A stretch of 64,000 nt of DNA from Yeosuana aromativorans (GTDB lineage: Bacteria > Bacteroidota > Bacteroidia > Flavobacteriales > Flavobacteriaceae): assembly GCF_014646655.1 (NCBI RefSeq), contig NZ_BMNR01000002.1:461942-525941 (forward strand). Reading direction: 5' to 3'. Below, piece after piece: positions 38,189 through 56,037 of the stretch. The position numbers and the translations under genes were made by a program. The notes under the pieces were generated by a model. It was not told the origin of the DNA and did not search any database. It worked only from the letters and a program-made list of their open reading frames with translations. Each line of letters begins with the position of its first letter. Positions within the stretch are counted from its first letter, which is position 1.

Positions 38189-38746
38189 TTATACAATTTG
38201 GTCAAGGGTTTTTCTCTCCCATTGTTGCAAGTTTTTATATTCGGTCATTGACATGCCTGTTATGTTTTTAAATTGTCTTGCCAAGTGGCTACTTGACGCA
38301 TAATTAAGGTTATAGGCTATTTCAGAAAAATTTAATTCTCCCAACTGCATATATTCTTTTACCTTTTCAATTTTTAGGTTAATTTCATATTTTTCAATGG
38401 TCATACCTTCAGTTTTACTGAACAGCTTACTTAAGGCAGAATAGGATTTGTTGAAATTTTTAGACAAATAAGAAGAAATATTTAAGTTGTCTTGATTTTC
38501 GATTTTTTTTATAAGTGCAATCTTTATTTCTTCAATCAATACTTCTGTTTCATCTTTGATAATCTCAAAACCGTGTTTTTTAAGATTTTCTTCTAATTTA
38601 GAATTATCTTTAGGCATACTTTCATTAAAAACTACCTGTCCTAATTTAAGTGAAACTATATTATAACCCAGTGCATCCAACTCTCTTTTCACCGTTGCCT
38701 TGCATCGGTTGCATACCATATTTTTTATATAAAGTGTCTTTTTCAT
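38189..38746 (-). CDS. HMA-AraC fusion regulator (copy 1)
   Basis: 185 residues. Residues about 1-65 form a ferredoxin-like heavy-metal-associated domain with M-x-C-x-x-C (KNMVCNRC, Cys12 and Cys15) and the ending KHGFEIIKDE. Residues about 85-180 are a two-HTH AraC-type domain (LNFSEIAYNLNYASSSHLAR, then QFKNITGMSMTEYKN). The usual AraC sensor domain is replaced by the metal domain, so it should be a one-component Cu(I) sensor. The Met-rich lipoprotein gene lies 109 bases downstream. A paralogue at 55456-56037 shares the plan. Metal and targets are inferred. Confidence 0.88.
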   Translation of the reverse strand: MKKTLYIKNMVCNRCKATVKRELDALGYNIVSLKLGQVVFNESMPKDNSKLEENLKKHGFEIIKDETEVLIEEIKIALIKKIENQDNLNISSYLSKNFNKSYSALSKLFSKTEGMTIEKYEINLKIEKVKEYMQLGELNFSEIAYNLNYASSSHLARQFKNITGMSMTEYKNLQQWERKTLDQIV

Positions 38747-38789
38747 TTTTTATTTAGATAAAACATCCATACCAACAACTATTGGGTAT

Positions 38790-39998
38790 TCACAAAAAGG
38801 CTTTCAATGCCAATCCTATTAAAAGAATCAAAGCAAATAGATAGACTATCAAACGTTTGAAACCTAATTTTAAAAAATTGAAACCCTTCCAATCTCCATC
38901 TTTTTTCTTTTTCTTAATGTTGTAATAAACCAAAACACTTGTTATTACAGCGAAGACCATATTAAACCAGAACGTATAATCTATTTTAAAAGTTCTGCCA
39001 TCGGCTTGTTTTTTAACAGATTCCGGTATAGCATCAAAAAGTTCAAACCCATAATCCAAAATTAAGGCCGTGAATAAAATACTTATGTACATGATCCCTG
39101 CAATATATAAGGCTACCTTTATTCCGTAATATTTTCTGTTCATGTCTACTAAAGGAGGCACCATCAAATCAGAATATATAAATCCCATTACTCCGGTAAA
39201 TGCTACTCCTGAACCAGCAAGTACTGTAGCCAAAGGAATGTTTCCCATTGACCCTATAAAGGTAAGGGCAGCTACAAAAGGAGCCACCGCTGCATTCTCT
39301 AACCGAATCCAAAATCCAGGTTCCCCAGACATGGGCACCATATCCTGTAGAAATATGGCCTGCCAAAAACTATCTGGAACAAAAACCGCTACAAATCCTG
39401 CAATTACAAAACCAATCAAGATATCCTCCCAGGCCATTCCCCACTCCATACTATAGCTTTTGCTGACCATATACCATCCTTTTTTTGATTTTATGCGCTT
39501 TTTCCAATCAAAGTCTTCTTCTTTAATATCTGATTCCTTTTCTAACTTTTCACGAGCGTTTTTTATCCATTGTTTGGGATATGTTAATTTAATAAGAATC
39601 GAACTTATTACAATAAGAACCAATCCACCAATAATTTCTGCTACTACGTATTCTGCTCCCAGAAAAATAAAAATTAAAATACCCAATTCTATTACTAAAT
39701 TGGTTGAAGCAAACATAAAAGCAACTGTAGTAATAAAATGAGCTCCTTTTTTGAAGAGCGAACGTGCAGTTGCCAATGCTGCAAAAGAACAAGAAGAGCT
39801 TATAGCACCGAATAGCGTTGATAAGGAGACGCTTTTAACACTTAATCCACCAATATAATTGGTCAACTTCTTTTTTGGAACAAATGATTGAATCATGGCA
39901 CTGATTGCATAACCCAAAACAAATGCCCAACCAGATTTCCAGAAGAAGCCTAATGATGTAAATGCGCCTTCTCCCCACTGTTTTAAAAAGTCATTCAT
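38790..39998 (-). CDS. Permease of the YraQ/ArsP-like family
   Basis: 402 residues with eight or more membrane helices. The signature SSSCSFAALATARSLFKKGA (first repeat) is repeated in kind by GSMGNIPLATVLAGSGVAFT in the second half, as in DUF318 permeases. A central cytoplasmic stretch (REKLEKESDIKEEDFDWKKR) links the halves. Some relatives export arsenicals; here, next to the copper regulator, a metal-related cargo is likely but unknown. Confidence 0.85.
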   Translation of the reverse strand: MNDFLKQWGEGAFTSLGFFWKSGWAFVLGYAISAMIQSFVPKKKLTNYIGGLSVKSVSLSTLFGAISSSCSFAALATARSLFKKGAHFITTVAFMFASTNLVIELGILIFIFLGAEYVVAEIIGGLVLIVISSILIKLTYPKQWIKNAREKLEKESDIKEEDFDWKKRIKSKKGWYMVSKSYSMEWGMAWEDILIGFVIAGFVAVFVPDSFWQAIFLQDMVPMSGEPGFWIRLENAAVAPFVAALTFIGSMGNIPLATVLAGSGVAFTGVMGFIYSDLMVPPLVDMNRKYYGIKVALYIAGIMYISILFTALILDYGFELFDAIPESVKKQADGRTFKIDYTFWFNMVFAVITSVLVYYNIKKKKKDGDWKGFNFLKLGFKRLIVYLFALILLIGLALKAFL

Positions 39999-40078
39999 AA
40001 TCTTATGTTTTAGTACCTGGTTTATGAAGGGTTTTAACTAATCAATAAAAGAAACCATTCCATACTTAACATCAGGTC

Positions 40079-40534
40079 TTATTTTAAACTGTCTTTTATT
40101 TGTTTCATAAATCCTATAACCAATTCCTTTTCAGATTCTGATAAAATGGCATCCCTATGAATCAAAGTGTATGAAGACAATGGCATCTCATTATCTTCAA
40201 TTTGACTTATTATCGATTTTAATTTGCTTTTTTTTCTTCTATCTGAATAGTTTGACCATTCACTAAAATTCAATTCAGACTTACCCTTTTTAATATGGTT
40301 TTCTAAAAACCAAGCAACTGGCTGTACTTTATTATACCAAGGATAGGCCGTATTGTTACTATGGCAATCATAACAGGAAATTTGCAACTTGTTCCCAATA
40401 GCTTTCGGAACATCATTAACCAACATAAAGTCTGTTTTAGGCACAACATCACTTTGATTGCGTGGGGTTTTAACAAACTGAATTCCTACAAAAACCACCA
40501 ATAAAACCAATGCTATGATTTTAACTACTTTCAT
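40079..40534 (-). CDS. Haem-binding (cytochrome c-like) domain protein
   Basis: 151 residues with an N-terminal anchor (IIALVLLVVFVGIQFV) and one CxxCH haem site in ISCYDCHSNNTAYPWYNKV, followed by WFLENHIKKGKSELNFSEW, the signature of the Bacteroidota haem-binding domain. It should carry electrons on the periplasmic face. It overlaps the preceding DUF3347 gene stop by no bases and starts one base before it, indicating tight coupling. Confidence 0.85.
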   Translation of the reverse strand: MKVVKIIALVLLVVFVGIQFVKTPRNQSDVVPKTDFMLVNDVPKAIGNKLQISCYDCHSNNTAYPWYNKVQPVAWFLENHIKKGKSELNFSEWSNYSDRRKKSKLKSIISQIEDNEMPLSSYTLIHRDAILSESEKELVIGFMKQIKDSLK

Positions 40535-41203
40535 TTAATTAATTTTCTTTTTTACATTCCCACAGGTTATCATTTTACTACCAAAAAAAGGGTTTTTAAT
40601 CTCTTTGGTTTCACTTAACCAATTTGTTTTTTTCATTGGGCAATAATCTAGGTATAAGGTTTTATTTGTACCCAATAATGTTACCAAATCAGAGATATCT
40701 GTACTCAATGTTTCAAAATGCTCCCGTTGGTGCTCAAGAGGGCTTTCGGAAATATGCTCTGCATGTTCTTTAGCATCTTCAACGATGTCCATGTAGGCTG
40801 TATGTTGCTCTTCATTAAGTTGCGACATCTCAAAGTTTGAAAAAGCGGCAAGCAATGCTGTTCCTCCTTTTGCGGCATTGTCTTTATTATCGGCAACTAA
40901 TCCATTTTTAATTTGAAGGTAGGCATCAATAATCGGCGCTGTTGCAGCGTTTTTTTGAGTGGATGCTTCTATATCCCTAGTTTTCATTGTAGCTCCTTTG
41001 TCATGATCATGATCTTCATCACCATCTTCATGATGATGTTCTTCACTTTCATTATTCATTCCCATGTGGTTTTCTTTAGCCCCCATTTCTGTATGATGCC
41101 CATTTGAATCAACAGACTCCTTTTTGTTGTCTTTACAAGACATTACTGTTAAGGCTGCAAATGCTATTGCAAAAATTCCAATCGATAATTTTGTTTTTCT
41201 CAT
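40535..41203 (-). CDS. DUF3347 metal-related lipoprotein
   Basis: 222 residues: lipobox (AFAALTVMSCKDN), a His/Glu-rich segment (HHEDGDEDHDHDKG), and a DUF3347 domain (about 75-222) that ends YCPMKKTNWLSE and GSKMITCGNVKK. The CPM...CG pair of cysteines and Met recurs at 46508-47056 and at the CusB C-terminus, suggesting a shared copper site. Periplasmic copper storage or chaperone work is likely. Confidence 0.85.
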   Translation of the reverse strand: MRKTKLSIGIFAIAFAALTVMSCKDNKKESVDSNGHHTEMGAKENHMGMNNESEEHHHEDGDEDHDHDKGATMKTRDIEASTQKNAATAPIIDAYLQIKNGLVADNKDNAAKGGTALLAAFSNFEMSQLNEEQHTAYMDIVEDAKEHAEHISESPLEHQREHFETLSTDISDLVTLLGTNKTLYLDYCPMKKTNWLSETKEIKNPFFGSKMITCGNVKKKIN

Positions 41204-41259
41204 TTTTATTTGTTTTAAGTTTATATTAATAAAATACTGCTTTGCTCTATTTTATAGAG

Positions 41260-41646
41260 TCATAACTTTTCTATTACGTTTTCAAGCATTGCGGTTATGT
41301 CTTTGGCAACATCACTCAACTTTTCATTCTCCACAGCTTGCATTGATGCCATTGGGTTGACCGCAGCTACTTCGATAATGTCTTTATCAATTTCCTGTAC
41401 TATAACGTTGCAAGGCAACATGGTGCCAATTTTATCTTCTGCTTGTAACGCTTTATGTGCATAAGGTGGATTACAAGCTCCCAATATTATATACTTTTTA
41501 AAGTCTACGCCCAATTTTTTCTTTAAAGTTGCTGTTACATCAATTTCTGTAAGTATTCCAAAACCTTCTTCTTTTAATCCTTTTGTAACTTTATCGATAA
41601 CCTCTTCAAAAGTTCCATTTACTGTTTTATTAAAATAATAGTTCAT
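41260..41646 (-). CDS. DUF302 domain protein
   Basis: 128 residues, a single DUF302 domain: FEEVIDKVTKGLKEEGFGIL, KYIILGACNPPYAHKALQAE and the Cys in MLPCNVIV. Such proteins occur in copper and sulphur-handling clusters and have the fold of small periplasmic or cytoplasmic sensors. There is no signal peptide. Function is unknown. Confidence 0.85.
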   Translation of the reverse strand: MNYYFNKTVNGTFEEVIDKVTKGLKEEGFGILTEIDVTATLKKKLGVDFKKYIILGACNPPYAHKALQAEDKIGTMLPCNVIVQEIDKDIIEVAAVNPMASMQAVENEKLSDVAKDITAMLENVIEKL

Positions 41647-41651
41647 GTTTT

Positions 41652-41840
41652 TTAATTTTTTGAATTAATGACTTGTTTTTTTTCCTCATATTCTTCTTTG
41701 GATATTTCACCATTTGCAAAGCGTCTGTCCAAAATTTCCGAAGGACTCTCCTTCTTGGGGATTTTGATCCCATTTTTCCCTGCATATAGTATAACCGCCA
41801 AAGCAATTATTACTAAAACAATAATCCATGTATACATCAT
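41652..41840 (-). CDS. SHOCT domain membrane protein (copy 1)
   Basis: 62 residues: a membrane helix (TWIIVLVIIALAVILYAG) and a C-terminal SHOCT motif (SEILDRRFANGEISKEEYEE). SHOCT domains mediate oligomerisation. A related protein at 57969-58187 forms part of the second copper module. It is 6 bases upstream of the DUF302 gene. Confidence 0.8.
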   Translation of the reverse strand: MMYTWIIVLVIIALAVILYAGKNGIKIPKKESPSEILDRRFANGEISKEEYEEKKQVINSKN

Positions 41841-41852
41841 AATTTCTGCTTT

Positions 41853-43151
41853 TTATTTGTTATCACTTCTTTTCAAAAACCATTTTTCGCCAAAAAAGAT
41901 AAGCGTTATGGCGACTAATGCAACAATTATAACAGTTACATCTGAACTTGCCTTAATCCATAAAAAGCCACTTAAAACCACTATATCCAAAATTATTGCC
42001 GTTAGTACCATAAAGAAATTAGCCTTTATCTCTTTTCTTATATTTTTTAATATGCCCCATTGGATACCTATGTCCATCACCAAATAGAAAATAGCTCCTA
42101 GAGATGCAATACGACTTAAATCAAAAAATACAGTTAATACAATTGCTATGACAGTAACGTAAACCAACATATGCCTTTGAATATTTCCAGGCATCCCAAA
42201 ATGCTTATGCGGGATAAGTTTCATATCGGTTAGCATTGCCGTCATTCTTGATACAGCAAAAATGCTGGCTATAATTCCAGATATGGTAGCCACTATGGCG
42301 ATACCTACTGTAAACCATAATCCATATTTACCAAAGGCAGGTTTAGATGCTTCGGCCAGCGAATAATCTTTAGCTGTAACAATTTCAGAAATCGTTAAAT
42401 TTGAGGAGACAGAAAATGCTACTAACAGATAAACTATGGTACATATTGCAAGAGATATAATAATTGCTCGTCCTACATTTTTGTTTGGGTTTACAATTTC
42501 TCCACCACTATTTGTAATAGTGGTAAATCCTTTATATGCCAAAATTGATAAAGCCAATGCCCCTAAATAATCTGTAATTGGGTAGGTTGAGTCATTATTA
42601 ACATTAACAATATCTTGGAAAGAAAAACCAGCAGCCCAAAGTGCTCCAATTGCAAAAATAGAAATACCACCAATCTTTATAATGGCCATTGTTAATGAAG
42701 ACCTTTCAATAATGTTATTTCCTGAAATATTAATTAGAAAAGCACCAACAATAAGGATGACACCCAATATTGACACCCAAACACTATTATTACTCACATT
42801 GAAAAGCTGTAAAGAATAAGAACCAAAAGTTCTGGCAACCAAACTCTCGTTAATAATCATAGAAAATGCCATTAACAGCGCTCCTGATGAAGCAACAGTA
42901 CCTTTGCCATAAGCTTTAATCAAATACATTGCGATACCGCCTGAGGATGGAAATGCATTCGACATTTTTATATAACCATACGCACTAAAACCTGATATGA
43001 TAGCTCCAGCAATAAATGCAAACGGGAAAAAATTCCCTGAGAGTTCAGCAATTTGGCCTAATAAAGCAAAGATACCAGCACCAATCATCACGCCAGTACC
43101 TAATGACACTGCACCTGTTAAGCTAATACTATTTTTTTTATAGGTTGACAT
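41853..43151 (-). CDS. APC-superfamily amino acid/polyamine permease
   Basis: 432 residues with twelve predicted membrane helices and the APC signature GVMIGAGIFALLGQIAE at the first helix. The later helix AFPSSGGIAMYLIKAYGKGT and SILAYKGFTTITNSGGEIVNP fit the family. The substrate is unknown. It follows the multicopper oxidase with a 2-base gap on the minus strand, so it is in the same copper operon. Confidence 0.88.
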   Translation of the reverse strand: MSTYKKNSISLTGAVSLGTGVMIGAGIFALLGQIAELSGNFFPFAFIAGAIISGFSAYGYIKMSNAFPSSGGIAMYLIKAYGKGTVASSGALLMAFSMIINESLVARTFGSYSLQLFNVSNNSVWVSILGVILIVGAFLINISGNNIIERSSLTMAIIKIGGISIFAIGALWAAGFSFQDIVNVNNDSTYPITDYLGALALSILAYKGFTTITNSGGEIVNPNKNVGRAIIISLAICTIVYLLVAFSVSSNLTISEIVTAKDYSLAEASKPAFGKYGLWFTVGIAIVATISGIIASIFAVSRMTAMLTDMKLIPHKHFGMPGNIQRHMLVYVTVIAIVLTVFFDLSRIASLGAIFYLVMDIGIQWGILKNIRKEIKANFFMVLTAIILDIVVLSGFLWIKASSDVTVIIVALVAITLIFFGEKWFLKRSDNK

Positions 43152-43153
43152 AA

Positions 43154-45523
43154 TTAAAATCGAACTAATAGACCTCCTCCCCAGCCATATTTATTGTTAT
43201 AATTTCCTTGTATGGAAAAATTACGGGAAAGAATGTAAGACGCACCAACCAGCCACTGGGTTTCACCTTGATACGATTTGTTATTCTCCAGATGGTTTAC
43301 CCATCCAAAATCTGCTCTGTACTCGTATTCGCCTTCTAGGAATATTCTTGGAAAAATCAATAACTCTCTGTCCATACGTATTCTTGGGCGCAACTGATAA
43401 TCTATACTCACATCTACATTAAATCTATATGGGGTAAAATATTTAATACCAACTAATCCTACTGTATTAAAAGTATCATAAGAATCTGGTGTTGATGTTT
43501 CTGTATTTACTCCTGCATAAATACGCACCCAATCATTGAGGTATCTATTATAATTTACTTCTATTTCAGCGTTTTGGCTATAATCAAACTCGCCACGCAA
43601 ACTAAATTCATTTCTAATATTACTTGACGTTAAAAAGAGTTCATTAAAGTTTGAACCTGTACGAGCCAACCCCCAGGAGTAGTATCGATCTGTTTCATCT
43701 ACAAGTTTTTGAACTGGAAAGTCGGTCATCCTTTTATCTCTAGGTGTATCATAACTAAACACCCGTGCCATACCCCCTACCAAATGGTACAAAATATGAC
43801 AGTGAAAAAACCAATCGCCATACTCTTCATTATAAAATTCGATAACGACTTTTTGCATCGGTGGCACATTAACAGTGTGTTTTAATGGTGATCGCTCCCC
43901 ATTTTCATTAATCACCCTAAAGTAATGACCGTGCAAATGCATTGGGTGGTGCATCATTGTAAGGTTATTTAACGTAATCCTTGTAACTTCACCACTTTTA
44001 ATTTTAATCTTATCCGTTTCGGACAATGGCACTCCATTCATACTCCAGATATAACGCTGCATATTTCCTGTTAGATTGAGCAAGATGTCATTTACGGGTA
44101 AATCTGCATTATAAGTGGTATTTTCCTTGGCCTTTAAAAAATCATAGTTGAAATAGGTTTTACGAACATTGTAATCAAAAGCTGTTGTATCTTTTTGTAT
44201 CTTGGGCATATCATTATTCATATGGTCTTTCATTTTGCCCATGGTTTCAGTATGGCTCATTGAGACCGATCCTGTTTTCGTTTCCTTCATTTTATCCCTA
44301 GTCATATGGTCATCCTCCTTGGGCCTCATCTCATCCTTCTTCATATTCATACCCATGTTCATCTGTCCATCTTTCATATCCATCTTCATTCCATATTTCT
44401 GCATCAAAACCTCTGGTGTCTTTTTCTTTTTATTTCCAACTATCGCAGGCGCACCCATCTTCATATCCATTTTTGCCATTTGCTTCATCATGGCTACTTT
44501 GTCTGGCCTACCTATTACAGTTGCTGGAAAAAGTTTTCCGCTTCCCAAGCGAATTGAGGTATTACCAGAACCATCCTGAGTTGTGGCGGTAATTTCTAAA
44601 ATTCCTTCCGGAATAGTTACTATAACATCATAGGTCTCTGCAATTGCAAAAAGAAACCGGTTTTTATGAATTGGTGTTACATCAACGCCATCACTTGCAA
44701 CGATCATCGGGTTGCCAGCACCAAAATCCATCCAATAGTAGGTAGAGGCAGAAGCATTTATAAATCGAAGTCTCACTTTTTCACCTGGTTTAAACTCTGG
44801 ATATTCAGCAATTTTTTTACCATTTGACAAAAATGCAGGGTAGTATATATCTGCAATATCTGCACCTTCCATACGGTCCCGCCAAAATTTGAACTGTGCT
44901 CCCAGAGCACCTTCTTTAATTACCCTACTCAACGGTACTGCTGTTCCTTTTTTAACTTGATACCACTCGTTCCCTCTTTTTAAGTTACGTAGTACATTCA
45001 TTGGTTTTTCATTGGTCCAATCAGACAATACCACTACCAAATCTTTATCATAATCCAAGGTTTTCTCTTTTGGCTGAATAACTATAGAGCCATAAACTCC
45101 CTTTTGCTCTTGTAAAAGTGTATGGGAATGATACCAAAACGTACCTGACTGGTTAATTGGAATTCTGTACTGGAATGTCTCACCGGGCTCTATAGGCGGT
45201 GTAGTTAAATAAGGAACACCGTCATAGAAATTTGGCAGTATCAATCCATGCCAATGCACAGACGTTTCTTCATCCATTTTATTGGTTACGTTGATTATGG
45301 CAAGGTCACCTTCATTAAATTCTAAAGTAGGTCCAGGAACACTACCATTTATGGTCATGGCATTGGCAGTAACACCACCAAGGGTCATTTTATTTTTATT
45401 TAAAGTAAGATTATACTCTTTTATAGGTCGTCCCTCTTCTTTTCTGTCTTTACCGTTTGTACCAACTTGAGCCAATGAGAATGAGGACCATAAAAATAAA
45501 AGTATAATATAAATTGATTTCAT
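43154..45523 (-). CDS. Multicopper oxidase (CopA-like) fused to a CopB-like outer-membrane domain
   Basis: 789 residues. The signal (IILLFLWSSFSLAQ) precedes three cupredoxin domains with the copper ligands HWHGLILPNFYDGV, FWYHSHT, HHPMHLHGHYFRV and DWFFHCHILYHLVGGMARV. A Met-rich segment (about 345-440; KMDMKMGAPAIVG, GMKMDMKDGQMNMGMNM) sits between domains as in CopA. The last 180 residues are barrel-like with CopB features (YYSWGLARTGSNFNELFL, IYAGVNTET, LVGASYILSRNFSI). The oxidase would convert Cu(I) to Cu(II) in the periplasm. CopA and CopB are normally separate proteins; here they are joined. Confidence 0.92.
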   Translation of the reverse strand: MKSIYIILLFLWSSFSLAQVGTNGKDRKEEGRPIKEYNLTLNKNKMTLGGVTANAMTINGSVPGPTLEFNEGDLAIINVTNKMDEETSVHWHGLILPNFYDGVPYLTTPPIEPGETFQYRIPINQSGTFWYHSHTLLQEQKGVYGSIVIQPKEKTLDYDKDLVVVLSDWTNEKPMNVLRNLKRGNEWYQVKKGTAVPLSRVIKEGALGAQFKFWRDRMEGADIADIYYPAFLSNGKKIAEYPEFKPGEKVRLRFINASASTYYWMDFGAGNPMIVASDGVDVTPIHKNRFLFAIAETYDVIVTIPEGILEITATTQDGSGNTSIRLGSGKLFPATVIGRPDKVAMMKQMAKMDMKMGAPAIVGNKKKKTPEVLMQKYGMKMDMKDGQMNMGMNMKKDEMRPKEDDHMTRDKMKETKTGSVSMSHTETMGKMKDHMNNDMPKIQKDTTAFDYNVRKTYFNYDFLKAKENTTYNADLPVNDILLNLTGNMQRYIWSMNGVPLSETDKIKIKSGEVTRITLNNLTMMHHPMHLHGHYFRVINENGERSPLKHTVNVPPMQKVVIEFYNEEYGDWFFHCHILYHLVGGMARVFSYDTPRDKRMTDFPVQKLVDETDRYYSWGLARTGSNFNELFLTSSNIRNEFSLRGEFDYSQNAEIEVNYNRYLNDWVRIYAGVNTETSTPDSYDTFNTVGLVGIKYFTPYRFNVDVSIDYQLRPRIRMDRELLIFPRIFLEGEYEYRADFGWVNHLENNKSYQGETQWLVGASYILSRNFSIQGNYNNKYGWGGGLLVRF

Positions 45524-45562
45524 TTTTTTCGTTTTTCTTATCTTTCTATTATATAATTTAAA

Positions 45563-45997
45563 CTATTTTTTATGAAATTTAAAATATTTTTTGTACGATT
45601 GTTCTGATTCAAAATAAAGAACATCATTATTGCCTTGGGGAGACAATACGATATAAGCTAATGCCTTATCTACTTCTTTTCCGGTAAGAGGATCTTTTGA
45701 ATACCGAACTTCTCTTATGGATTTTAATTTCCCAACACAATCAGGGCAACAACCATAATAGGTTTTTCCCTCAAACACAACAGGAATTTGGTCAATACCC
45801 ATAAATTTATTATTGACGTAACACACTTTACTTGATTCTATTTTTGCTGCTTGAGCGGATTTTGAAATCATTTTTGTTGGACTTTCAATCTGATTGGTGC
45901 CAACTGGTTCTTTTTTATTGTCCTGATTTTTACAACTGCTTATAAATGCGCTTATAAATAATGCGCTTATAAATAAATATTTTCTACTTGTTTTCAT
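45563..45997 (-). CDS. Cys-rich lipoprotein of the copper operon
   Basis: 144 residues with a lipobox (ISAFISSCKNQ). The core KVCYVNNKFMGIDQIPVVFE leads to YYGCCPDCVGKLKSIREVRY, a TRASH/YHS-like metal-binding pattern with three cysteines, and ends YFESEQSYKKYFK. A periplasmic copper chaperone role is likely. Function is inferred from the motifs and the adjoining oxidase gene. Confidence 0.75.
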   Translation of the reverse strand: MKTSRKYLFISALFISAFISSCKNQDNKKEPVGTNQIESPTKMISKSAQAAKIESSKVCYVNNKFMGIDQIPVVFEGKTYYGCCPDCVGKLKSIREVRYSKDPLTGKEVDKALAYIVLSPQGNNDVLYFESEQSYKKYFKFHKK

Positions 45998-46119: not shown

Positions 46120-46434
46120 TTAATCTCTTATTCTTACTTTTTGCTCTACATTGGTCACATAGATTAAGCCATCACCACTTTTACCTGTATGTGCATGTTC
46201 TTTTATTATCTTAACAATTGCATTTTCATCTTCTTTATTGCACACTATTTCTAATTTTGCAATCTTGTAGTGCAAAAAAGGATGTCTTAAACTTGGGTAT
46301 TCTTTATCCGGATCAGAAAGTTTTCCTGAACCATCGCCTTCAAAAAGGCTAAAACAACAAAAACCGTTTTTTTGCAAATTTAATGCTACATCATTTACTC
46401 TATTTATGCGGAAAAATGCTTTAATTTCTTTCAT
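46120..46434 (-). CDS. PII-like protein of the copper region
   Basis: 104 residues: MKEIKAFFRINRVNDVALNL, a shortened T-loop with FEGDGSGKLSDPDKEYPS and no uridylylation Tyr, and B-loop GKSGDGLIYVTNVEQKVRIR. It lies after a terminator from the DUF3347 gene and before the Cys-rich lipoprotein gene. Its presence at both metal pumps argues for a shared regulatory role in efflux rather than nitrogen control. Confidence 0.85.
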   Translation of the reverse strand: MKEIKAFFRINRVNDVALNLQKNGFCCFSLFEGDGSGKLSDPDKEYPSLRHPFLHYKIAKLEIVCNKEDENAIVKIIKEHAHTGKSGDGLIYVTNVEQKVRIRD

Positions 46435-46456
46435 GACTTTAATTTTAAGATTAAAA

Positions 46457-47080: not shown

Positions 47081-48976
47081 TTAATTTTCAATTATTGTTT
47101 TTGTGTCACCACAGGTCAGCATCTTTTTACCGAGATATGGATTATTGATTTTCTCGCTTAAACTCATCCAAAAAGCACCGTTATTATTATCGGCCATAGG
47201 GCAAAACTGTTCATATACTTTTTGGTTGACACCAAATAGTTTGACGGCTTTTGATAAATGGGCAGACAAATGCTTAAAATGGTCTCGTTGTTTATAAATA
47301 TCATTTGTTTTGGATATCGAAAGTGCTGATGCATTTACTTCTTTACTAATGGTCATCCAATGGTTATGCGCTTCCATATCTGTTAATAATTTCATTTCAA
47401 CCTTTTTCATGGAATTCAAGAGTTCACCTGCATATTTTTGGGCTGCATTAGCATCATCTTTGGTTAAAGCATCCTTAAGTAGGATATATTGATTGAAAAC
47501 ATTTTCTAATTGGCTTTTAAAATCTTTTGATACAGAAATTCGAGTATCCATTTTGGAATGGTCAACATCATTTTTCATTTTCATTGGATCCATTGTCTCT
47601 TTTGAAGTTTTCATGTTTTTCATTTCCTCGTCCGTCATTTTATTAGCTCCAGCTGATTTCTTTTTATCTCCACCCATGTCCATTCCTGGCATATTTGCCA
47701 TACCTCCCGTGTTTCCTTTTTCGCCAGTTGGGTTCATCATGCTTTTTTGACCTAATAATTGGGCTGAGGCATCTATTCTAAAGACACCATTGGATGCCAC
47801 TGTTTCTCCACCAACTAACCCATCTTTTACTATATAAAAATTCCCCATATCTTGGCCTAGGGTTATTTCCCTATATACAAACGAAATGGTTTTTTCATGA
47901 GGAACTTTTACATATACTACTGAGCGTTTACCCGTCCAAAGAACTGCTGATTTTGGAATTACAATAGCATCTTTAACATTGGTTAATTTGGCATTAATAA
48001 TACCACTTGCATACATTTCTGGCAATAGTGCATTTGATGGATTTTGAAGCTCCACCCGTACTTTGGCAACCCTTGTGTTTGAAGACACAAAGGGATCGAC
48101 ATAAGTCACTTTCCCTTTAAACATTTTCCCGGGAATGGCATTGATGGTAAAATCTACTACATTACCAAGTTGTATCCATGGAATATCGGCCTCATATGCT
48201 TCGAACATGACCCAAACACTGCTTAAATTCGCAATATCAAATAATACACTTCCTTCTTTTATGTAATCCCCCAACTCCACATCTCTTTTCATGACATAGC
48301 CTGTATAATCAGATAAAATATCTATTTGCTCTTGTATCTTTCCTGATTCTTCTATGGCATCAATTTGAGCATCGGTCAACTTCCATAGTTTTAGTTTATT
48401 ACGGGTTGCTGTGTACAATTGTGGATAGATGTCCCTTGAATTTATTGACTCAAAAAGTTCCTTTTGGGCGGATATCAATTCTGGAGAATAAATACGCACA
48501 ATTTTTTGGCCTCTAACCACCTTCTCTCCTGTAAAATTAACGTATAGGCGTTCTATTCGTCCCGGAATGTGGGAGACTTGAGAAAATAACTTACGTTCAT
48601 CAGGTTGGACTCTGCCCAGTAAACGAATTTCTTTTGTTGCACTTGCTTTTTCAACTAATGTGGTTTGAATATTTCCTAACTGAATAGCTTCTTCCGTGAG
48701 TACAATTTCATTTTCTGCAATTTTTTCCTCATTAGCATTAGAGCTTGCATCAAGCGGTATTAAAGTCATACCGCAAATTGGGCATTTGCCCGGTTTTTCC
48801 ATACGAATCTGCGGGTGCATGGAGCAAGTCCACAATTTTGTTACTGGATCTTGAACAAGGTTGTGTTCACCGTCTTTATGTACGCCCTCTGAACCTCCTC
48901 CAGAAAACACATTTCCTAAAATGATTCCGATAAATAAAATACCGGCTGCAATGATGTAATTTTTATATTTTTTCAT
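47081..48976 (-). CDS. cusB: CusB-type RND adaptor with heavy-metal domain and C-terminal DUF3347
   Basis: 631 residues, about 200 longer than standard adaptors. After a signal anchor, residues about 48-75 are a heavy-metal-binding module (WTCSMHPQIRMEKPGKCPIC, then GMTLIPL). The adaptor core follows with the lipoyl and hairpin parts (FTGEKVVRGQKIVRIYSPEL). A Met/Lys-rich linker (NMPGMDMGGDKKK, then MTDEEMKNMKTSKETMDPMK) leads to a DUF3347 domain ending FCPMADNNNGAFWMSL and KKMLTCGDTK. The extra domains would feed periplasmic Cu(I)/Ag(I) to the pump. It overlaps in operon with cusC. Confidence 0.92.
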   Translation of the reverse strand: MKKYKNYIIAAGILFIGIILGNVFSGGGSEGVHKDGEHNLVQDPVTKLWTCSMHPQIRMEKPGKCPICGMTLIPLDASSNANEEKIAENEIVLTEEAIQLGNIQTTLVEKASATKEIRLLGRVQPDERKLFSQVSHIPGRIERLYVNFTGEKVVRGQKIVRIYSPELISAQKELFESINSRDIYPQLYTATRNKLKLWKLTDAQIDAIEESGKIQEQIDILSDYTGYVMKRDVELGDYIKEGSVLFDIANLSSVWVMFEAYEADIPWIQLGNVVDFTINAIPGKMFKGKVTYVDPFVSSNTRVAKVRVELQNPSNALLPEMYASGIINAKLTNVKDAIVIPKSAVLWTGKRSVVYVKVPHEKTISFVYREITLGQDMGNFYIVKDGLVGGETVASNGVFRIDASAQLLGQKSMMNPTGEKGNTGGMANMPGMDMGGDKKKSAGANKMTDEEMKNMKTSKETMDPMKMKNDVDHSKMDTRISVSKDFKSQLENVFNQYILLKDALTKDDANAAQKYAGELLNSMKKVEMKLLTDMEAHNHWMTISKEVNASALSISKTNDIYKQRDHFKHLSAHLSKAVKLFGVNQKVYEQFCPMADNNNGAFWMSLSEKINNPYLGKKMLTCGDTKTIIEN

Positions 48977-48984
48977 AATGTTTC

Positions 48985-50220
48985 TTATTTTCCTATTAAA
49001 TAATCCATAAACGCTGCTGCAGCATTTTTATCGGTCAATGCCTTTTGCTGTTCCAATTCGTACTTTAACAACTGACGTTCAATACGCAAGACTTCTTCAA
49101 AATCTTTTGAATTTGTAGAGTAAGAAGTCATTAAAACATCCAAAACTTTTTTAGCTATTTCAGATTGTCTTCCATTTAAAGCTATACGCCTATTGCCATC
49201 ATTGAACTCTTTAAGCGTGTTTTTATAAATGGTGCCCAATGTATTTTTTTTGTCTTCTTTTCGTGAAATTTCTGCCTCCTGCATATATTTCGCCTCTGTA
49301 ATCATTGCCTTATATTTTTTGCGATATAAAGGGATGGTAAGACCTACAGAAGGAAACATAAATACATCCTTACCATTATCGGAAGCGATTGACGATGGGT
49401 TTTTTCCAACAACGGTATACCCTAATCCAATATTGAACTTTGGAAGCCCTTCTTTTTTGGCCACAATTTCTTGGTTTAAAAAGGCATTAAGTTTATGATC
49501 AATACTTTTAATTTGATGATTTGATACATAAATTTCATCAAGCATTTTTAATTGATCTAGAGGAATTTCGTCTTGCCATAATAGCTCTGGTACCATTATT
49601 TCTGATGTATCTTCCCTATTTAATAGGTTATTGAACTTTACCTGTAATACATCTTTAGTGTCTAAAAATAATGCCAATTGATTTTCAAGATCATTCAATT
49701 CCAACTCCACACGGAGCTCATCGACAATGGATGCTTTACCTGCTTCTATTTTCACCAAAGAAAGTCGTTTAAAAACTTGCAATATCTCCACATTATCTTT
49801 GGTTATCTGTATAGCTTTCTCAATAAAATAGTAGTTGTAATAAGCTGTTTTCACCTCAAAAAATAAATTGGATTTTGCGTTTTCAAAGACTTCATATTTG
49901 GCCTTTGCCATTTCAGTGGCCACATCTTCTTTAGCACTCAACAACCCAAACCAAGGAAAGCTTTGTGATAAATTGAAAGTTGCTCTTTGAGGGCCTACCC
50001 TGGTTTCTGGTGATTGAATAAAATAACCAAACGCAACTTGAGGATCAGGTAAAGTGCCTACCTGAGGCACTTTTTCCATGGCAGCCATATAATCACTGAA
50101 CGATGCTTTTAACTCAGGATTATTCTCAGCTGCAATTTTTAGATAATTTTCTAATACTGATTGGCTAAAAGTGTTCAAACTTAGTAGCAACAAGCAGCCA
50201 AAGAAAATTATTTTATACAT
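48985..50220 (-). CDS. cusC: TolC-family outer-membrane channel (CusC type)
   Basis: About 411 residues from MYKIIFFGCLLLLSLNTFSQ; an ATG four codons upstream (50232) could also serve. It is an outer-membrane efflux protein with paired coiled-coil repeats (ENYLKIAAENNPELKASFSD, FPWFGLLSAKEDVATEMAKA) and beta-strand inserts (NIGLGYTVVG, GLTIPLYRKK). It forms the outer channel of the Cus pump. It is 11 bases after cusA. Confidence 0.9.
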   Translation of the reverse strand: MYKIIFFGCLLLLSLNTFSQSVLENYLKIAAENNPELKASFSDYMAAMEKVPQVGTLPDPQVAFGYFIQSPETRVGPQRATFNLSQSFPWFGLLSAKEDVATEMAKAKYEVFENAKSNLFFEVKTAYYNYYFIEKAIQITKDNVEILQVFKRLSLVKIEAGKASIVDELRVELELNDLENQLALFLDTKDVLQVKFNNLLNREDTSEIMVPELLWQDEIPLDQLKMLDEIYVSNHQIKSIDHKLNAFLNQEIVAKKEGLPKFNIGLGYTVVGKNPSSIASDNGKDVFMFPSVGLTIPLYRKKYKAMITEAKYMQEAEISRKEDKKNTLGTIYKNTLKEFNDGNRRIALNGRQSEIAKKVLDVLMTSYSTNSKDFEEVLRIERQLLKYELEQQKALTDKNAAAAFMDYLIGK

Positions 50221-50242
50221 TTTTATTATCATCTTTTTAAGT

Positions 50243-53200
50243 TTAAGATTGTATGTTTTTTTGTTGTTTCTTTAAACCATGTTCTTTCCACATACTGTAT
50301 AAAACAGGAACTACAAACATGGTCATCACTTGCAACAGCATGCCTCCAAAGGAAGGAATTGCCATAGGGACTACAACGTCGGCTCCTTTTCCAGTGGCCG
50401 TGAGGACAGGAATCAAGGCAATAATGGCCACAGCTGCCGTCATCATTGCTGGCCGTACCCTTTTAGACCCTGCATGCAGAACAGAAGTCCTTACACCTTT
50501 AACGGTATTTGGCTTTTCCTCTTCAAAGACCTGGGTTAAGTAGGTTCCCATAATAACCCCATCATCGGTAGCAATGCCAAATAGCGCAATAAAACCTACC
50601 CACACTGCTACACTGAGATTAATAGTGTGCAACTGGAACAGATCGCGCATATAGACTCCAGCAAATTTGAAGTTTAAAAACCAGTCCTGTCCATATAACC
50701 AGATCATAATAAAACCACCAGCAAAAGCAACAAAAATGCCCGTAAATACCATTAACGATGGCAATAAATTCTTGAATTGGAAATATAAAATCAATAGGAT
50801 AAGAATCAATGAAATTGGCACGACCAACATCAACCGTTTAGACGCCCTGATTTGATTTTCATAGTTCCCAGTAAAACGGTATGTTACCCCTGCGGGTAAT
50901 TTAAATTCACCCGAATCCATTTTCTCCTTTAGCAACTTCTGCGCATCTTCAACCACATTGGTCTCGGCATTGCCTTCATTCATATCAAAAATTACGTATC
51001 CCGTTAAAAAAGTGTCCTCACTTTTTATTACCTGAGGTCCGCGAACATATTCAATGGATGCCAGTTCACCCAACTCTACTTGTACCCCAGCAGGTGTTGG
51101 TATTAAAATTTTCTTCAAATCATCAGGATTGTCCCTATACTCACGTGCATAACGTGCCCGAACCGGGAAACGTTCCCTGCCTTCAACGGTAGTGGTTAAT
51201 TGCTTGCCACCAACAGCGACCGATAGTTGCATTTGCATATCCTTAATTGTTAAACCATATCTAGACATGGCTTGTCGATTTAATTTCATTTCCAAATAGG
51301 GTTTACCAACAACCCTGTCGGCAAAAACGGTAGACGGATTTATACTGGGAACTTCCTTTAACAGGTTTTCCAATTCAAATCCTGTTTTTTCAATGGATTC
51401 CAATGTTGGTCCAAATACCTTTATGCCCATGGGGGCCCTCATGCCCGTAGACAACATAATCAATCGTGTTTGAATAGGTTGTAATTTTGGGGCCGATGTC
51501 AAGCCTGGAAATTTGGAATGTTTTACAATTTCATTCCAAATGTCATCCGCTTTTTTAATTTTTGGGCGCCATTGTCTAAAGTACTCACCATCCTCATCTT
51601 CAATCAATTGCTCTTTAGTTATTTTTCTGAACTCATCCTTACCATACTTATACGTTGTACCATCTCTTAAAACAAATGCATCATGTTTATCAACTTTAAA
51701 ACGCACTCTTCTTCCATCAGCATCTATTATGTATTCAGGAATATAATTTATGGTATTTTCATACATCGAGGTTGGCGCTGGATCCAATGCCGAATTGACA
51801 CGCCCCCATTTACCAACAGACGTTGCTATCTCGGGAATAGAGTTCATGTGCTTATCTATGCTCGCAATGACCTCCATGTTTTCAGTTATTCCAGAGTGAG
51901 GCATGGTCGTTGGCATTAATAGAAAAGAACCTTCATCTAAAGCGGGCATGAATTCCTTTCCAACCCCCGGAAACGAATTTTCAGCACTTTTCCAAACATC
52001 AGTGTCTTTTATAAAATTTGGCATAAAACTGAACGTTTTGCCAAAACCCAACCAAATGGTAATACCAAAGAACACCACAATTATTGGAATTGACAGGAAT
52101 TTCCATTTATTTTCTAAACACCAAGCTAGAACTGTTGAATAAAAATGAACAATAGTCATCAAAAGTCCTAAAACCGTTCCTACAATAATAATTACGAATA
52201 TGAAATTTACAAATGTAGAGTTGGAAGCTCCCAAAGGCATCCATTCAATCGTTAAAAAATAAACCACTGTTAATACGGTAATACCAATATTGATGTAATT
52301 GGCAATTTTATCCGAATACGGTAGTTTTATTCTGTTTTTCAAAAATGTTCTTTCCGGTACTTGCGTCAATAAATTATTGGCCCCAAATGCGATTAAGGCG
52401 AGGGCAATATAACTTCCATAAGCTACTAAAAACACGATACCAAAACCAATTAAAATAGAATTGAATATGCGGCTTGTTTTCCTTTTATCTAATTTTATGG
52501 AAAATAATACCTGTGCAATGGCAGGAATAAATAGTATGCCAATAAACAATGAGGATACCAAGGCAAATGTTTTGGTAAAGGCCAAGGGTCTGAATAATTT
52601 TCCTTCTGAGGCCTGCATGGCAAACACGGGTAAAAAACTTACTATGGTTGTTGCCAATGCGGTCATGATGGCAGAAGCGACTTCTACGGTTGCCACATAA
52701 ATTACTTGTACCAATTTTTTACCACCTATATGCTCGTTTTCGGGCATCTCAAGATGCCTTATGATATTTTCGGTAAACACAATACCAACATCCACCATCA
52801 CACCTATAGCAATGGCAATCCCAGAAAGTGCCACAATATTGGCATCTACATTAAAGAATTTCATCAATATAAAGGTCATTAAAACACCAACAGGCAGCAA
52901 GGTTGAAATCAAAACAGATGCCCGAAGGTTTAGCACCAATACAATTACAACTAGGATGCTTATCAAAATTTCGTGGGATAATGATGACTCTAGGGTTCCT
53001 AAGGTTTCCTGAATCAAACCTGAACGATCATAAAAAGGGACAATGGTGATTTTTGAAACTGTACCATCAGCCAGTGTCTTAGAGGGCAATCCTGGTGCAA
53101 CTTCATCAATCTTCTTTTTAAGATTATGAATAACCTCTTGAGGGTTTGCTCCATAACGGGCGACTACTACACCACCAACGGCCTCTACACCACTTTTGTC

Positions 53201-54082
53201 CAATCCCCCTCTTCTGGTAGCTGGCCCAAATTGTATTTTTGCAACATCCTTTAACCGAATGGGCACGTTGTCATGTACAGTAACTACACTTTCTTCCAAA
53301 TCGGATAGATTCTTAATGTATCCCAATCCACGAACCAAATACTCAACTTTATTAAATTCTAATGTACGCGCACCAATATCCAGATTGCTGTTCTTAACGG
53401 CGTTCATAATCATGTTTACGTTCACATTGTTGGCTTTCATGGCGTCAGGATCAATTTCCACCTGGTACTCTTTAAGGAAACCACCAACCGAGGCCACTTC
53501 AGAAACACCGCTTGTGGCCGTTAGATAATAGCGTACATAAAAATCCTGTATGGTTCTTAATTCCTGTGGATCCCAGCCACCTGTTGGTTTGCCAGTTTTT
53601 GGGTCTCTACCCTCCAACGTGTACCAATATACCTGCCCTAATGCCGTAGCATCTGGACCTAGTGCAGGTTTAACTTCATCAGGTATCGTTCCCGGTGGCA
53701 AGGAATTGAGTTTTTCTAGGATACGGGTTCTGCTCCAATAAAAATCGACATCATCATTAAAAATGATATAAATACTGGACAATCCAAAAATGGAATTGCT
53801 CCTAATTGTTTTTACGCCAGGAATTCCCAATAAGGCCGTTGTTAATGGATACGTAATTTGGTCTTCAATATCTTGTGGCGATTGCCCCATCCATTCCGTA
53901 AATACAATTTGTTGGTTTTCTCCAATATCTGGAATGGCATCAACGGGAACGGGACTTCGTTCAATCCATGAGGTTTCCCAATTAAATGGTGCCGTTACAA
54001 TTCCCCCAATAATAAAGGCGAACAGCAACATGAATGTTATTAGCTTGTTTTCAAGAAAATAGCGAATGATTTTATTTAACAT
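50243..54082 (-). CDS. cusA: CusA-type copper/silver RND pump with an extra membrane insertion
   Basis: 1279 residues, longer than the roughly 1050 usual for CusA. The pump pattern starts MLNKIIRYFLENKLITF; the TM4 motif IAIAIGVMVDVGIVFTENII fits the CusA/SilA (Cu/Ag) group, and MLSTGMRAPMGIKVFG carries methionines of the export site. About 150 extra residues follow the conserved LFRPLAFTKTFALV tract (about 510-690) and hold three or four additional helices (SILIGFGIVFLVAYGSYIAL, YINIGITVLTVVYFLTIEWM, FVNFIFVIIIVGTVLGLLMT). It exports Cu(I)/Ag(I) through CusB and CusC. The insertion is known in some relatives but its role is unclear. Confidence 0.93.
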   Translation of the reverse strand: MLNKIIRYFLENKLITFMLLFAFIIGGIVTAPFNWETSWIERSPVPVDAIPDIGENQQIVFTEWMGQSPQDIEDQITYPLTTALLGIPGVKTIRSNSIFGLSSIYIIFNDDVDFYWSRTRILEKLNSLPPGTIPDEVKPALGPDATALGQVYWYTLEGRDPKTGKPTGGWDPQELRTIQDFYVRYYLTATSGVSEVASVGGFLKEYQVEIDPDAMKANNVNVNMIMNAVKNSNLDIGARTLEFNKVEYLVRGLGYIKNLSDLEESVVTVHDNVPIRLKDVAKIQFGPATRRGGLDKSGVEAVGGVVVARYGANPQEVIHNLKKKIDEVAPGLPSKTLADGTVSKITIVPFYDRSGLIQETLGTLESSLSHEILISILVVIVLVLNLRASVLISTLLPVGVLMTFILMKFFNVDANIVALSGIAIAIGVMVDVGIVFTENIIRHLEMPENEHIGGKKLVQVIYVATVEVASAIMTALATTIVSFLPVFAMQASEGKLFRPLAFTKTFALVSSLFIGILFIPAIAQVLFSIKLDKRKTSRIFNSILIGFGIVFLVAYGSYIALALIAFGANNLLTQVPERTFLKNRIKLPYSDKIANYINIGITVLTVVYFLTIEWMPLGASNSTFVNFIFVIIIVGTVLGLLMTIVHFYSTVLAWCLENKWKFLSIPIIVVFFGITIWLGFGKTFSFMPNFIKDTDVWKSAENSFPGVGKEFMPALDEGSFLLMPTTMPHSGITENMEVIASIDKHMNSIPEIATSVGKWGRVNSALDPAPTSMYENTINYIPEYIIDADGRRVRFKVDKHDAFVLRDGTTYKYGKDEFRKITKEQLIEDEDGEYFRQWRPKIKKADDIWNEIVKHSKFPGLTSAPKLQPIQTRLIMLSTGMRAPMGIKVFGPTLESIEKTGFELENLLKEVPSINPSTVFADRVVGKPYLEMKLNRQAMSRYGLTIKDMQMQLSVAVGGKQLTTTVEGRERFPVRARYAREYRDNPDDLKKILIPTPAGVQVELGELASIEYVRGPQVIKSEDTFLTGYVIFDMNEGNAETNVVEDAQKLLKEKMDSGEFKLPAGVTYRFTGNYENQIRASKRLMLVVPISLILILLILYFQFKNLLPSLMVFTGIFVAFAGGFIMIWLYGQDWFLNFKFAGVYMRDLFQLHTINLSVAVWVGFIALFGIATDDGVIMGTYLTQVFEEEKPNTVKGVRTSVLHAGSKRVRPAMMTAAVAIIALIPVLTATGKGADVVVPMAIPSFGGMLLQVMTMFVVPVLYSMWKEHGLKKQQKNIQS

Positions 54083-54189
54083 ATAATTTAATTTTTAAAC
54101 ATTAGACATTGGTGTTATAAAAACACCGAATACTCGAAATCATCCTAATGGAAAATATCCATTGGATAATACAGTCTATTGTTTAAAAA

Positions 54190-54600
54190 TCAAATTAAAT
54201 AAGTCTCATCAAGCTTGTAGATTTGCTTGATAACTAGTGGAGGTCTATATGACCTAAATGAAGTTACATTTTCATTATTGTCTTCAAAAAGGTTAACATA
54301 TGTGTATACAAATAAAGCCACAAACTGTTGTTGGTGGAGCGTTAAATTATCAAAAGATGTGTTTAGTTCATCTTGACCTTTAACAGTAATCTGTTTTTCA
54401 GAACAACAATTCTTATTGATAACCGAATAGTCAGTATTTGTATGCTCCATATCCATGCCACAAGATTTAGCTTTATGGAATATTGCAACATCAACCAATG
54501 TATCACCACAATAGTGCATGTCTATAGTAAAAGATATTGTTGATAACAGCACTAAAAGTGCCATACAAATAGATAATATTTTGAACAAGAATTTTTTCAT
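54190..54600 (-). CDS. HYC_CC_PP family protein (copy 2)
   Basis: 136 residues from MKKFLFKILSICMALLVLLS; an upstream ATG at 54606 adds two residues. Family features: MHYCGDTLVDVA (HYC), NKNCCSEKQIT (CC) and SYRPPLVIKQ (PP). It is divergent from copy 3 across the perfect palindrome at 54781-54794 and lies between cusA and that palindrome. A metal-binding membrane protein is likely. Confidence 0.82.
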   Translation of the reverse strand: MKKFLFKILSICMALLVLLSTISFTIDMHYCGDTLVDVAIFHKAKSCGMDMEHTNTDYSVINKNCCSEKQITVKGQDELNTSFDNLTLHQQQFVALFVYTYVNLFEDNNENVTSFRSYRPPLVIKQIYKLDETYLI

Positions 54601-54780
54601 TATCATTACAAAACTACAAAAATTTCAGCATCTTGGCTTTATTTAACATATATTTTGGATATATAAAACATTCTTTATTTTAAGCTACGGTTTTTAAAAT
54701 AAAAAAAATTACAAAATATTTTTTACTTTATTCGCTCAAATATTGAGATACAAATAAAAGAGTAAAGTTAGATACATAAA

Positions 54781-54794
54781 ATGATATATATCAT
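54781..54794. promoter_or_regulatory. Perfect palindrome ATGATATATATCAT between divergent HYC_CC_PP genes
   Basis: Identical to the box at 31971-31984. A TATTTTTG at 54817-54824 (plus strand) and a TTTATTTG ending at 54751 (minus strand) each lie 36.5 bases from its centre, the same distance seen upstream of yceI. It can therefore serve both divergent promoters at about -41.5, the class II position of FNR/CRP proteins. No Crp/Fnr-family gene is in the window. Confidence 0.65.
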
Positions 54795-54856
54795 ATTTTT
54801 GTTTAACCATAAGAGATATTTTTGAATGTTAACCAAAAATATGTTAGCTTTATAAA

Positions 54857-55279
54857 GTGAAATCTTTTTTTTCTAAAATACTATCTTTCCTTTTAGCAGC
54901 TTTAATATTGCTAACAACATCTTCTTTTAGGGTTAATATACACTATTGTGATAATGAATTAGTCAGCATGGCTTTTTTTGGTAAAGCTAAAGTTTGCGAA
55001 GATTATATAGAGAAGAATGATTTTTCAGTTAAAAACTGTTCTGCACTTCATGAAAAGGATTGTTGTGATAGTCAAACAATTGTTAAACAAGCTGATAATG
55101 TTTTCGAAACCTCTAAGAGTGAACTTAGGATTCAAACCATTGTTTTCCTTAACACCTTCTATTATACTTACCAAAACTTATTTGCAGAGAAAGAGAAAAA
55201 TTTAGTTCCTTTTGATAATTATCGACCACCATTGCTGACTAAGGATGTACAAATTCTACTCGAGACTTACTTAATTTGA
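54857..55279 (+). CDS. HYC_CC_PP family protein (copy 3), GTG start
   Basis: 140 residues with a GTG start: MKSFFSKILSFLLAALILLT anchor, then IHYCDNELVSM (HYC), KDCCDSQTIV (CC) and NYRPPLLTKD (PP). The GTG choice fits the family alignment with copy 2 and lies 69 bases from the palindrome centre. It begins the plus-strand copper module that continues with the HMA-AraC regulator. Confidence 0.82.
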   Translation: MKSFFSKILSFLLAALILLTTSSFRVNIHYCDNELVSMAFFGKAKVCEDYIEKNDFSVKNCSALHEKDCCDSQTIVKQADNVFETSKSELRIQTIVFLNTFYYTYQNLFAEKEKNLVPFDNYRPPLLTKDVQILLETYLI

Positions 55280-55455
55280 TTTTCTTCATTGTAGATTGAA
55301 TTCAATCTGCACATTATATTATAATAGCCAAATATTACTTCTGGCAAAAAATTGTTGTTCCTAATTCTCAACAATATAATTTACCCTACTAAACCTGTAT
55401 AGTCTTAGCCATATTAAAATTGGACATGATGTACAACGACAAAACATAAAATATT

Positions 55456-56037
55456 ATGAGTTCACCAAAAGAATTTTGGATAAAAAACATGGTCTGCAAT
55501 CGTTGCCTCAAAGTAATCAAACAAGAATTACAAGAGTTGGGTTTAACTGTATTGTCATTAGAATTAGGAAGGCTTTTAGTAGAGGCCACGAACAAAACAG
55601 ATAGTAATATCACAGGGGATGTCACAAAAGTGCTTCTTTCCAATGGGTTTGAAATTGTAAAAAGCGAAGAAGAAATGCTTTTAGAAAGAATCAAAATAAT
55701 CTTGATTGAGCAATTACAAGAATTACCTCTAAACATTAAAGTGAAAACTTCAGAATTATTGTCCTCTGCATTAAATCGTGACTATAAAACATTGAGCAAA
55801 TTGTTTTCTGCCAATGAAAAAACAACCATTGAAAAATATTTTATTAAACTGAAAACTGAAAAAGCAAAAGAACTCATCCAACTTAAACAACATTCTTTTT
55901 CAGATATAGGCTATTTGTTGGATTACAGTAGTGTCAACCACTTGTCACGCCAATTTAAAGATGTTGTTGGAATGAGTATGACTGACTATAAAAACGCAGA
56001 AAACTGGAAACGAAATTTCTATGATGAAATTATATAG
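55456..56037 (+). CDS. HMA-AraC fusion regulator (copy 2)
   Basis: 193 residues. The N-terminal HMA-like domain has MxCxxC in KNMVCNRC (Cys14 and Cys17) and ends NGFEIVKSE; the C-terminal AraC region has HSFSDIGYLLDYSSVNHLSR then QFKDVVGMSMTDYKN. The paralogue on the minus strand (38189-38746) has the same plan with about 40-50% identity by eye. As with the other copy, an HYC_CC_PP gene lies on one side and a Met-rich lipoprotein gene follows downstream (837 bases, with a WG-repeat gene between). Confidence 0.88.
   Translation: MSSPKEFWIKNMVCNRCLKVIKQELQELGLTVLSLELGRLLVEATNKTDSNITGDVTKVLLSNGFEIVKSEEEMLLERIKIILIEQLQELPLNIKVKTSELLSSALNRDYKTLSKLFSANEKTTIEKYFIKLKTEKAKELIQLKQHSFSDIGYLLDYSSVNHLSRQFKDVVGMSMTDYKNAENWKRNFYDEII

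Follow-up and report, generated by a model that had tools for sequence, protein, structure and literature searches.

REG1 and REG2, two small proteins encoded in a 64,000-nucleotide stretch of the Yeosuana aromativorans genome (assembly GCF_014646655.1, contig NZ_BMNR01000002.1, positions 461,942 to 525,941; the whole stretch is called the window, and its own numbering is used throughout), join a heavy-metal-associated (HMA)-like N-terminal domain to an AraC-type DNA-binding domain, and we judge it likely that they are cytosolic one-component activators responsive to Cu(I) or Ag(I), acting on a direct repeat of 21-bp period with their targets directly downstream. Copper sensing in the Bacteroidota is poorly defined, and these HMA-AraC proteins offer a concrete candidate for the sensor, one that comes with an operator prediction. 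A first-pass annotation of the window had picked out the two proteins as possible direct copper sensors; both are encoded by real open reading frames (ORFs), REG1 at 38189-38746 on the minus strand (185 amino acids) and REG2 at 55456-56037 on the plus strand (193 amino acids), and their architecture and likely copper role are well supported by the predicted fold, the phylum-wide gene context, the neighbouring P1B-1 ATPases and an operator-like repeat upstream of copA and Met-rich genes.

Domain composition and predicted fold of REG1 and REG2

Both proteins contain the sequence KNMVCNRC, an MxCxxC motif, within an N-terminal domain that occupies the position at which AraC regulators usually carry a ligand domain. 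In REG1 the HMA-like domain spans residues 3-63 (MVCNRC at 10-15) and is followed by a linker helix (66-83) and the AraC helix-turn-helix (HTH) region (90-171), while in REG2 it spans residues 5-68 (MVCNRC at 12-17), again followed by a linker helix and AraC HTH. The C-terminal part was matched above the Pfam cut-off by HTH_18 (PF12833/PF00165, the double HTH; E 3e-13 for REG1 and 5e-12 for REG2), as was every member in two family alignments of 20 and 22 members. A profile built from 20 relatives aligned end to end, over residues 2-64, with the metal-binding domains of CopZ, ATP7B and CopA-N in the PDB (E 2e-4 to 1e-3), and the same profile also gave AraC matches there.

Structure prediction, which had been suggested with the first-pass annotation as a check of the N-terminal domain, gave an HMA-like fold in both AlphaFold models (mean pLDDT 88 and 90), with the topology beta-alpha-beta-beta-alpha-beta, followed by a linker helix and then an AraC domain of seven helices. 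The modelled N-terminal domain of REG2 was closest to CsoZ (Z 9.9), CopZ (Z 9.2) and the ATP7B domains (Z 8-9), and that of REG1 to GolB (Z 7.8), Atx1 (Z 7.5) and CopZ (Z 7.2); the REG1 values of 7-8 are equalled by unrelated ferredoxin-like folds, whereas the REG2 values of 9-10 exceed those. Taken together, the sequence profile and the values for the REG2 and REG1 models support the assignment of the N-terminal domain as an HMA domain. The C-terminal HTH regions matched AraC-type structures with Z 12-15.

Distribution, copper context and cysteine conservation

The annotation had also called for a database search for the HMA-HTH_18 architecture and its gene neighbours, and this extended the observation from two proteins to about half of the Bacteroidota genomes sampled: relatives were found in 96 of 198 genomes of an evenly drawn sample, four of them being encoded in the Y. 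aromativorans genome itself, with Cys-less paralogs in different gene contexts. Gene context was assessed in 80 named loci (from genomes including Balneola and Gracilimonas) and 60 fetched regions, all annotated with the markers used for the window; loci were picked irrespective of context, and different queries were used to find members with the Cys residues and those without. A copper gene was defined as one for a P1B ATPase with CPC, CusA, a multicopper oxidase, HYC_CC_PP, CopZ or a Met-rich protein at a distance of 6.5 kb or less.

Context was available for 148 members, 107 of which keep both Cys residues and 41 of which lack one or the other. A copper gene lay near 85 of the 107 two-Cys members and near none of the 41 others (Fisher 8e-21, which is descriptive only as related sequences are not independent). 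The MVCxRC motif is nearly invariant across the copper-linked clade and both Cys are kept in all 85 copper-linked members. Of 62 nearest ATPases, 58 had P1B-1 Cu(I) motifs and the remaining four were short or aberrant ORFs; in Bizionia arctica (L041) the regulator gene directly precedes genes for a CopZ-like protein and CopA. From the P1B-1 neighbours and the conservation of the cysteines we infer that these proteins act as Cu(I) metalloregulators.

The signal might instead be another thiophilic metal (Zn, Cd, Hg or Au) or thiol/disulfide stress. CxxC-containing HMA domains serve Zn too (ZntA and ZiaA were among the fold matches), a CxxC motif can be redox active, and some family members lie beside ArsP/SO_0444-like permeases (L107); but the Cu(I) signatures of the neighbouring P1B pumps and surroundings made up of multicopper oxidase, Cus and Met-rich genes speak for copper, and we regard a different signal as unlikely.

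Genes for receiver proteins and for CHASE3/PAS kinases adjoin those of Cys-less paralogs with the same N-terminal domain, while the neighbours of a separate group of paralogs with the sequence MACESC are a phytochrome kinase and a receiver; the HMA-like fold seems to have been reused outside metal sensing in these groups. Cys-less or MACESC paralogs were seen beside CheY-like receivers and CHASE3/PAS or phytochrome histidine kinases at loci L152, L161, L195 and L196. The arrangement of the Cys-less paralogs would suit the view that the N-terminal domain is a relic HMA fold with a role in structure or dimerisation, the Cys residues being incidental and control being exerted by some other signal or by a partner kinase, but the near invariance of MVCxRC among copper-linked members, every one of which retains both Cys, makes this very unlikely.

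A 21-bp direct repeat as the putative operator

A de novo motif search by expectation maximisation, carried out on the regions upstream of P1B genes (copA), 37 in number after removal of duplicates, returned an 18-bp motif with a log-likelihood ratio of 149.7, compared with 59-61 in shuffled sequence. When extended, the motif is a direct repeat with AATYNTRYAA-type (AATTnTRTAA-like) half-sites and a 21-bp period, lying between the regulator gene and copA, as in AAATCTTACAAATCATTTCCAAAATTCCACAA at locus L114. Half-site pairs spaced by exactly 21 bp were present downstream of 50 of the 85 copper-linked regulators and upstream of none, while the adjacent spacings of 20 bp and 22 bp gave 2 and 0 respectively. 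TAnnTTTG is the -7 element of Bacteroidota promoters, and a box of this type (TAnnTT[TC][GA]) starts exactly 21 nt past the second half-site in 33 of the 37 sites that have one. In 36 of 63 sites, half-site 1 coincides with the final ten bases of the gene for the regulator, stop codon included. With a held-out position weight matrix (PWM) derived from nine non-flavobacterial sites, 20 of 47 flavobacterial regulators had a significant match on their downstream side and one of the 47 had a match on its upstream side (p<=0.01, judged against windows taken from the same locus). No convincing motif emerged from searches of the regions upstream of the regulators themselves, and a motif search of HYC promoters gave the -7 box only.

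AraC proteins commonly bind direct repeats with 21-bp spacing, and the repeat is probably the operator of the HMA-AraC regulators. It could in principle be bound by another factor, the regulator being adjacent through operon hitch-hiking, as binding by the REG proteins is a prediction and the region contains Crp/Fnr-like palindromes too. This explanation is most improbable, however, given the placement of the repeat downstream and never upstream of the copper-linked regulators, the frequency of such spacing among sites of AraC proteins, and the finding that the REG2 clade keeps the repeat at the same place in a half-site variant of its own (GAAATTATATAGATA...GAAAGTTATGCAGATA).

Predicted operator sites in the window

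At REG1, half-site 1 of the predicted operator (AATTGTATAA, 38189-38198, minus strand) is formed by the last 10 nt of the gene with its stop codon, half-site 2 (AATTATGTAA, 38168-38177, minus) follows at 21 bp, and a predicted -7 box resembling TAnnTTTG (TAATTTTA, 38139-38146, minus) lies 21 nt past half-site 2. A scan with a PWM trained on other genomes, no sequence of the window being included, placed its best match in the 64 kb at 38166-38201 on the minus strand (20.3 bits, the next being 11.4), between REG1 and the gene for Met-rich lipoprotein 1 (37649-38080, minus), which is directly downstream of REG1 and is its predicted first target. The pattern AATTRTRTAA-N11-AATTRTRTAA, which was written after the family sites, operator 1 among them, had been seen, occurs once in the 3.76-Mb genome, at operator 1.

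At REG2, half-site 1 (AATTATATAG, 56028-56037, plus strand) overlaps the stop codon and half-site 2 (AATTATATAG, 56049-56058, plus) is its exact direct repeat at 21 bp, with a predicted -7 box (TAAATTTA, 56080-56087, plus) 21 nt past half-site 2. This predicted operator heads an operon that begins with a WG-repeat protein gene (56109-56717, plus) and includes Met-rich lipoprotein 2 (56875-57339, plus; its N-terminus is weakly like that of PG1828-family lipoproteins) and a CopZ-like HMA protein (57680-57946, plus) in the cluster downstream of REG2; we predict it to be the REG2 target operon.

The first-pass annotation had suggested footprinting of the Met-rich, HYC_CC_PP and cus promoters. The Met-rich promoters downstream of each regulator do have a predicted operator, but no REG-type operator was found at the HYC/cus promoter in the window. 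A different conserved box (TTCTGTTAAACAAAA) is present there, so that something else may control the cus operon. At 54607-54680 on the minus strand, HYC_CC_PP-led cus promoters of Flavobacteriaceae share the box (C)TGTTAAACAAA, which lies some 30 bp before TAnnTTTG and is possibly the site of another regulator.

Two further candidates near the multicopper oxidase, a PWM match at 45568-45603 (11.4 bits) and a repeat with 2 mismatches at 45549-45579, were not counted, either for weakness or because they lay too near the start codon. The palindrome ATGATATATATCAT + N5 + TGTT, from the first dyad search, was rejected as a REG operator: its count was inflated, the same divergent HYC1/HYC2 regions having been counted on each strand, and it looks Crp/Fnr-like and occurs away from the regulators too. 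Crp/Fnr-like palindromes (TATGATATATATCATA and variants) lie upstream of several genes in the window, at 31960-32040, 33640 and 54780-54795, and the one in the divergent HYC1/HYC2 region is conserved in other Flavobacteriaceae.

Proposed mode of action

We propose that the MVCxRC motif of the HMA-like domain would load Cu(I) (or Ag(I)) in the manner of CopZ or the N-terminal domain of CopA, and that metal loading would alter how the linked AraC DNA-binding domain, or its dimer, sits on the direct repeat. The downstream half-site would stand in for a -33 element, and the bound regulator would recruit or activate RNA polymerase at the TAnnTTTG box 21 nt onward (class II activation). The expected target is the gene directly downstream of the regulator, namely copA in most genomes and the Met-rich lipoprotein gene or its operon in the window.

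The main alternative is that the same regulator and operator work in the opposite sense, the apo-protein repressing and Cu(I) releasing it as for CsoR and CopY, and an operator that overlaps the -33 region would fit such occlusion. Direct repeats of 21-bp period with a half-site at a fixed 21 nt from the -7 box have, however, the geometry of class II AraC activators (AraC/SoxS/MarA); activators also predominate in the AraC family generally. We therefore consider repression rather unlikely, and activation by the metal-loaded protein the probable mode.

Several results count against the proposal that these are copper-responsive regulators of this kind. The N-terminal domain is poorly recognised by the Pfam HMA model (PF00403), which gave 20.8 bits for REG1, below the cut-off of 24.8, no match for REG2, and E<0.01 for just 2 of 20 relatives, all 20 of which have HTH_18; hhalign against the window's single CopZ-like protein gave a probability of 7-17%, in a comparison with that one protein alone. 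No copper marker was found nearby for 22 of the 107 two-Cys members. The association between Cys and copper context is strong, yet it is not statistically independent and comes mostly from few splits of the tree, the Cys state changing about 6 times and the independent pairs numbering 3-6, too few to test. No recognisable operator was present at the window's copA (33669-36434).

Poor recognition by Pfam HMA, which misses most members, is probably why the family is annotated merely as AraC: relatives carry the names 'AraC family transcriptional regulator', 'helix-turn-helix domain-containing protein' and even 'response regulator' in public records, and none of the NCBIfam equivalogs fits REG1 or REG2.

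Comparison with known regulators

REG1 and REG2 share the C-terminal HTH fold of AraC, MarA, SoxS and Rob of the AraC/XylS family, and the predicted direct-repeat half-sites near the -35/-33 element are as for activators of that family, the 21-bp period being found in araI1-I2 also. Unlike those activators, they have an HMA-like domain of about 70 residues where the others have a cupin or some other domain for the ligand, and their predicted operator sits at the regulator's own stop codon. With the HMA metallochaperones and metal-binding domains (CopZ, CsoZ, GolB, Atx1, CopA-N) they have the fold and the MxCxxC motif in common, but differ in the fused DNA-binding domain, in the conserved Arg of the motif (MVCxRC) and in scoring below the Pfam HMA cut-off.

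CueR, the copper activator of the MerR family, is a cytosolic one-component regulator, and the REG proteins are expected to act as it does in activating copA, but the proteins are unrelated: REG1 and REG2 match AraC models and not MerR/CueR. No CueR over the cut-off was found in 148 sampled Bacteroidota genomes or in this genome, although MerR matches below the cut-off were common, some scoring fairly high. CsoR is a cytosolic Cu(I) sensor at copA loci, as is proposed for the HMA-AraC proteins, but it is an all-helical repressor, and its family (PF02583) was not among the matches of REG1 and REG2 and was not found in this genome. PF02583 was present in 44 of the 148 genomes, HMA-AraC in 71 and both in 6 (Fisher 3e-8, descriptive only as phylogeny confounds it).

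Copper-linked AraC proteins are not wholly new, because of YbtA, an AraC-type regulator needed for the response to copper-yersiniabactin and whose CxxC is required for activity; YbtA is reported to respond to Cu(II)-yersiniabactin and to control siderophore genes, not copA (PMC8725597). It thus shares with the REG proteins the AraC family, a CxxC motif and a link to copper, but the Cys-rich domain that serves YbtA for ligand binding is not described as HMA. A 2024 study of the marine Bizionia argentinensis, from a related genus, reported no MerR/CueR or CopY with a copper site and did not mention AraC (PMC11213822); our comparison with Bizionia rests on the genome of B. arctica. A survey of marine bacteria credited the Bacteroidota with two-component and extracytoplasmic function (ECF) systems only (PMC10141476). 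No report of the HMA-AraC fusion, its phylum-wide linkage to copA or its operator was found in the open-licence literature searched.

The HMA-AraC proteins are a new variant among AraC regulators and probably a new class of copper sensor. We lean, with some reserve, towards the broader view that they form a separate class on which the Bacteroidota mainly rely for sensing Cu(I) in the cytosol, that Cu(I) could pass straight between their chaperone-like domain and CopZ or CopA, and that an operator within the regulator's own stop codon keeps regulator and pump gene coupled. If true, this would supply a copper sensor not yet identified in the Bacteroidota, add an AraC regulator with a metal-binding domain to the metal-sensor families, and provide an example of a regulator that captured a metallochaperone domain.

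Neighbouring genes in the window

The first-pass annotation had assigned to each regulator a Met-rich lipoprotein and a HYC_CC_PP gene of its own, and this was accurate for the lipoproteins but only partly so for HYC_CC_PP, where the gene at 54857-55279 (plus) is directly upstream of REG2 and the one nearest REG1 (33132-33548) is about 4.6 kb distant. Three HYC_CC_PP genes (the third at 54190-54606) occur in one copper island, and at 35 of 80 loci a member of this family is found together with a cus operon. An ArsP/SO_0444-like permease gene (38790-39998, minus) is directly upstream of REG1 with a gap of 43 bp, and the two are probably co-transcribed. The CopA of the window (minus strand) is a P1B-1 Cu(I)-type ATPase with CPC, YN and MxxSS motifs, as judged by inspection, and a CusA-like RND pump (50243-54082, minus) goes with CusB-like (47081-48976) and TolC-like (48985-50232) components.

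A separate locus (19296-28466) contains further copies of two of the pumps, namely another P-type ATPase and another CusA-like RND pump, along with a Fur-family gene and a P-II-like protein. P-II-like proteins are encoded at 46120-46434 and 22368-22706, each within a metal resistance gene cluster.

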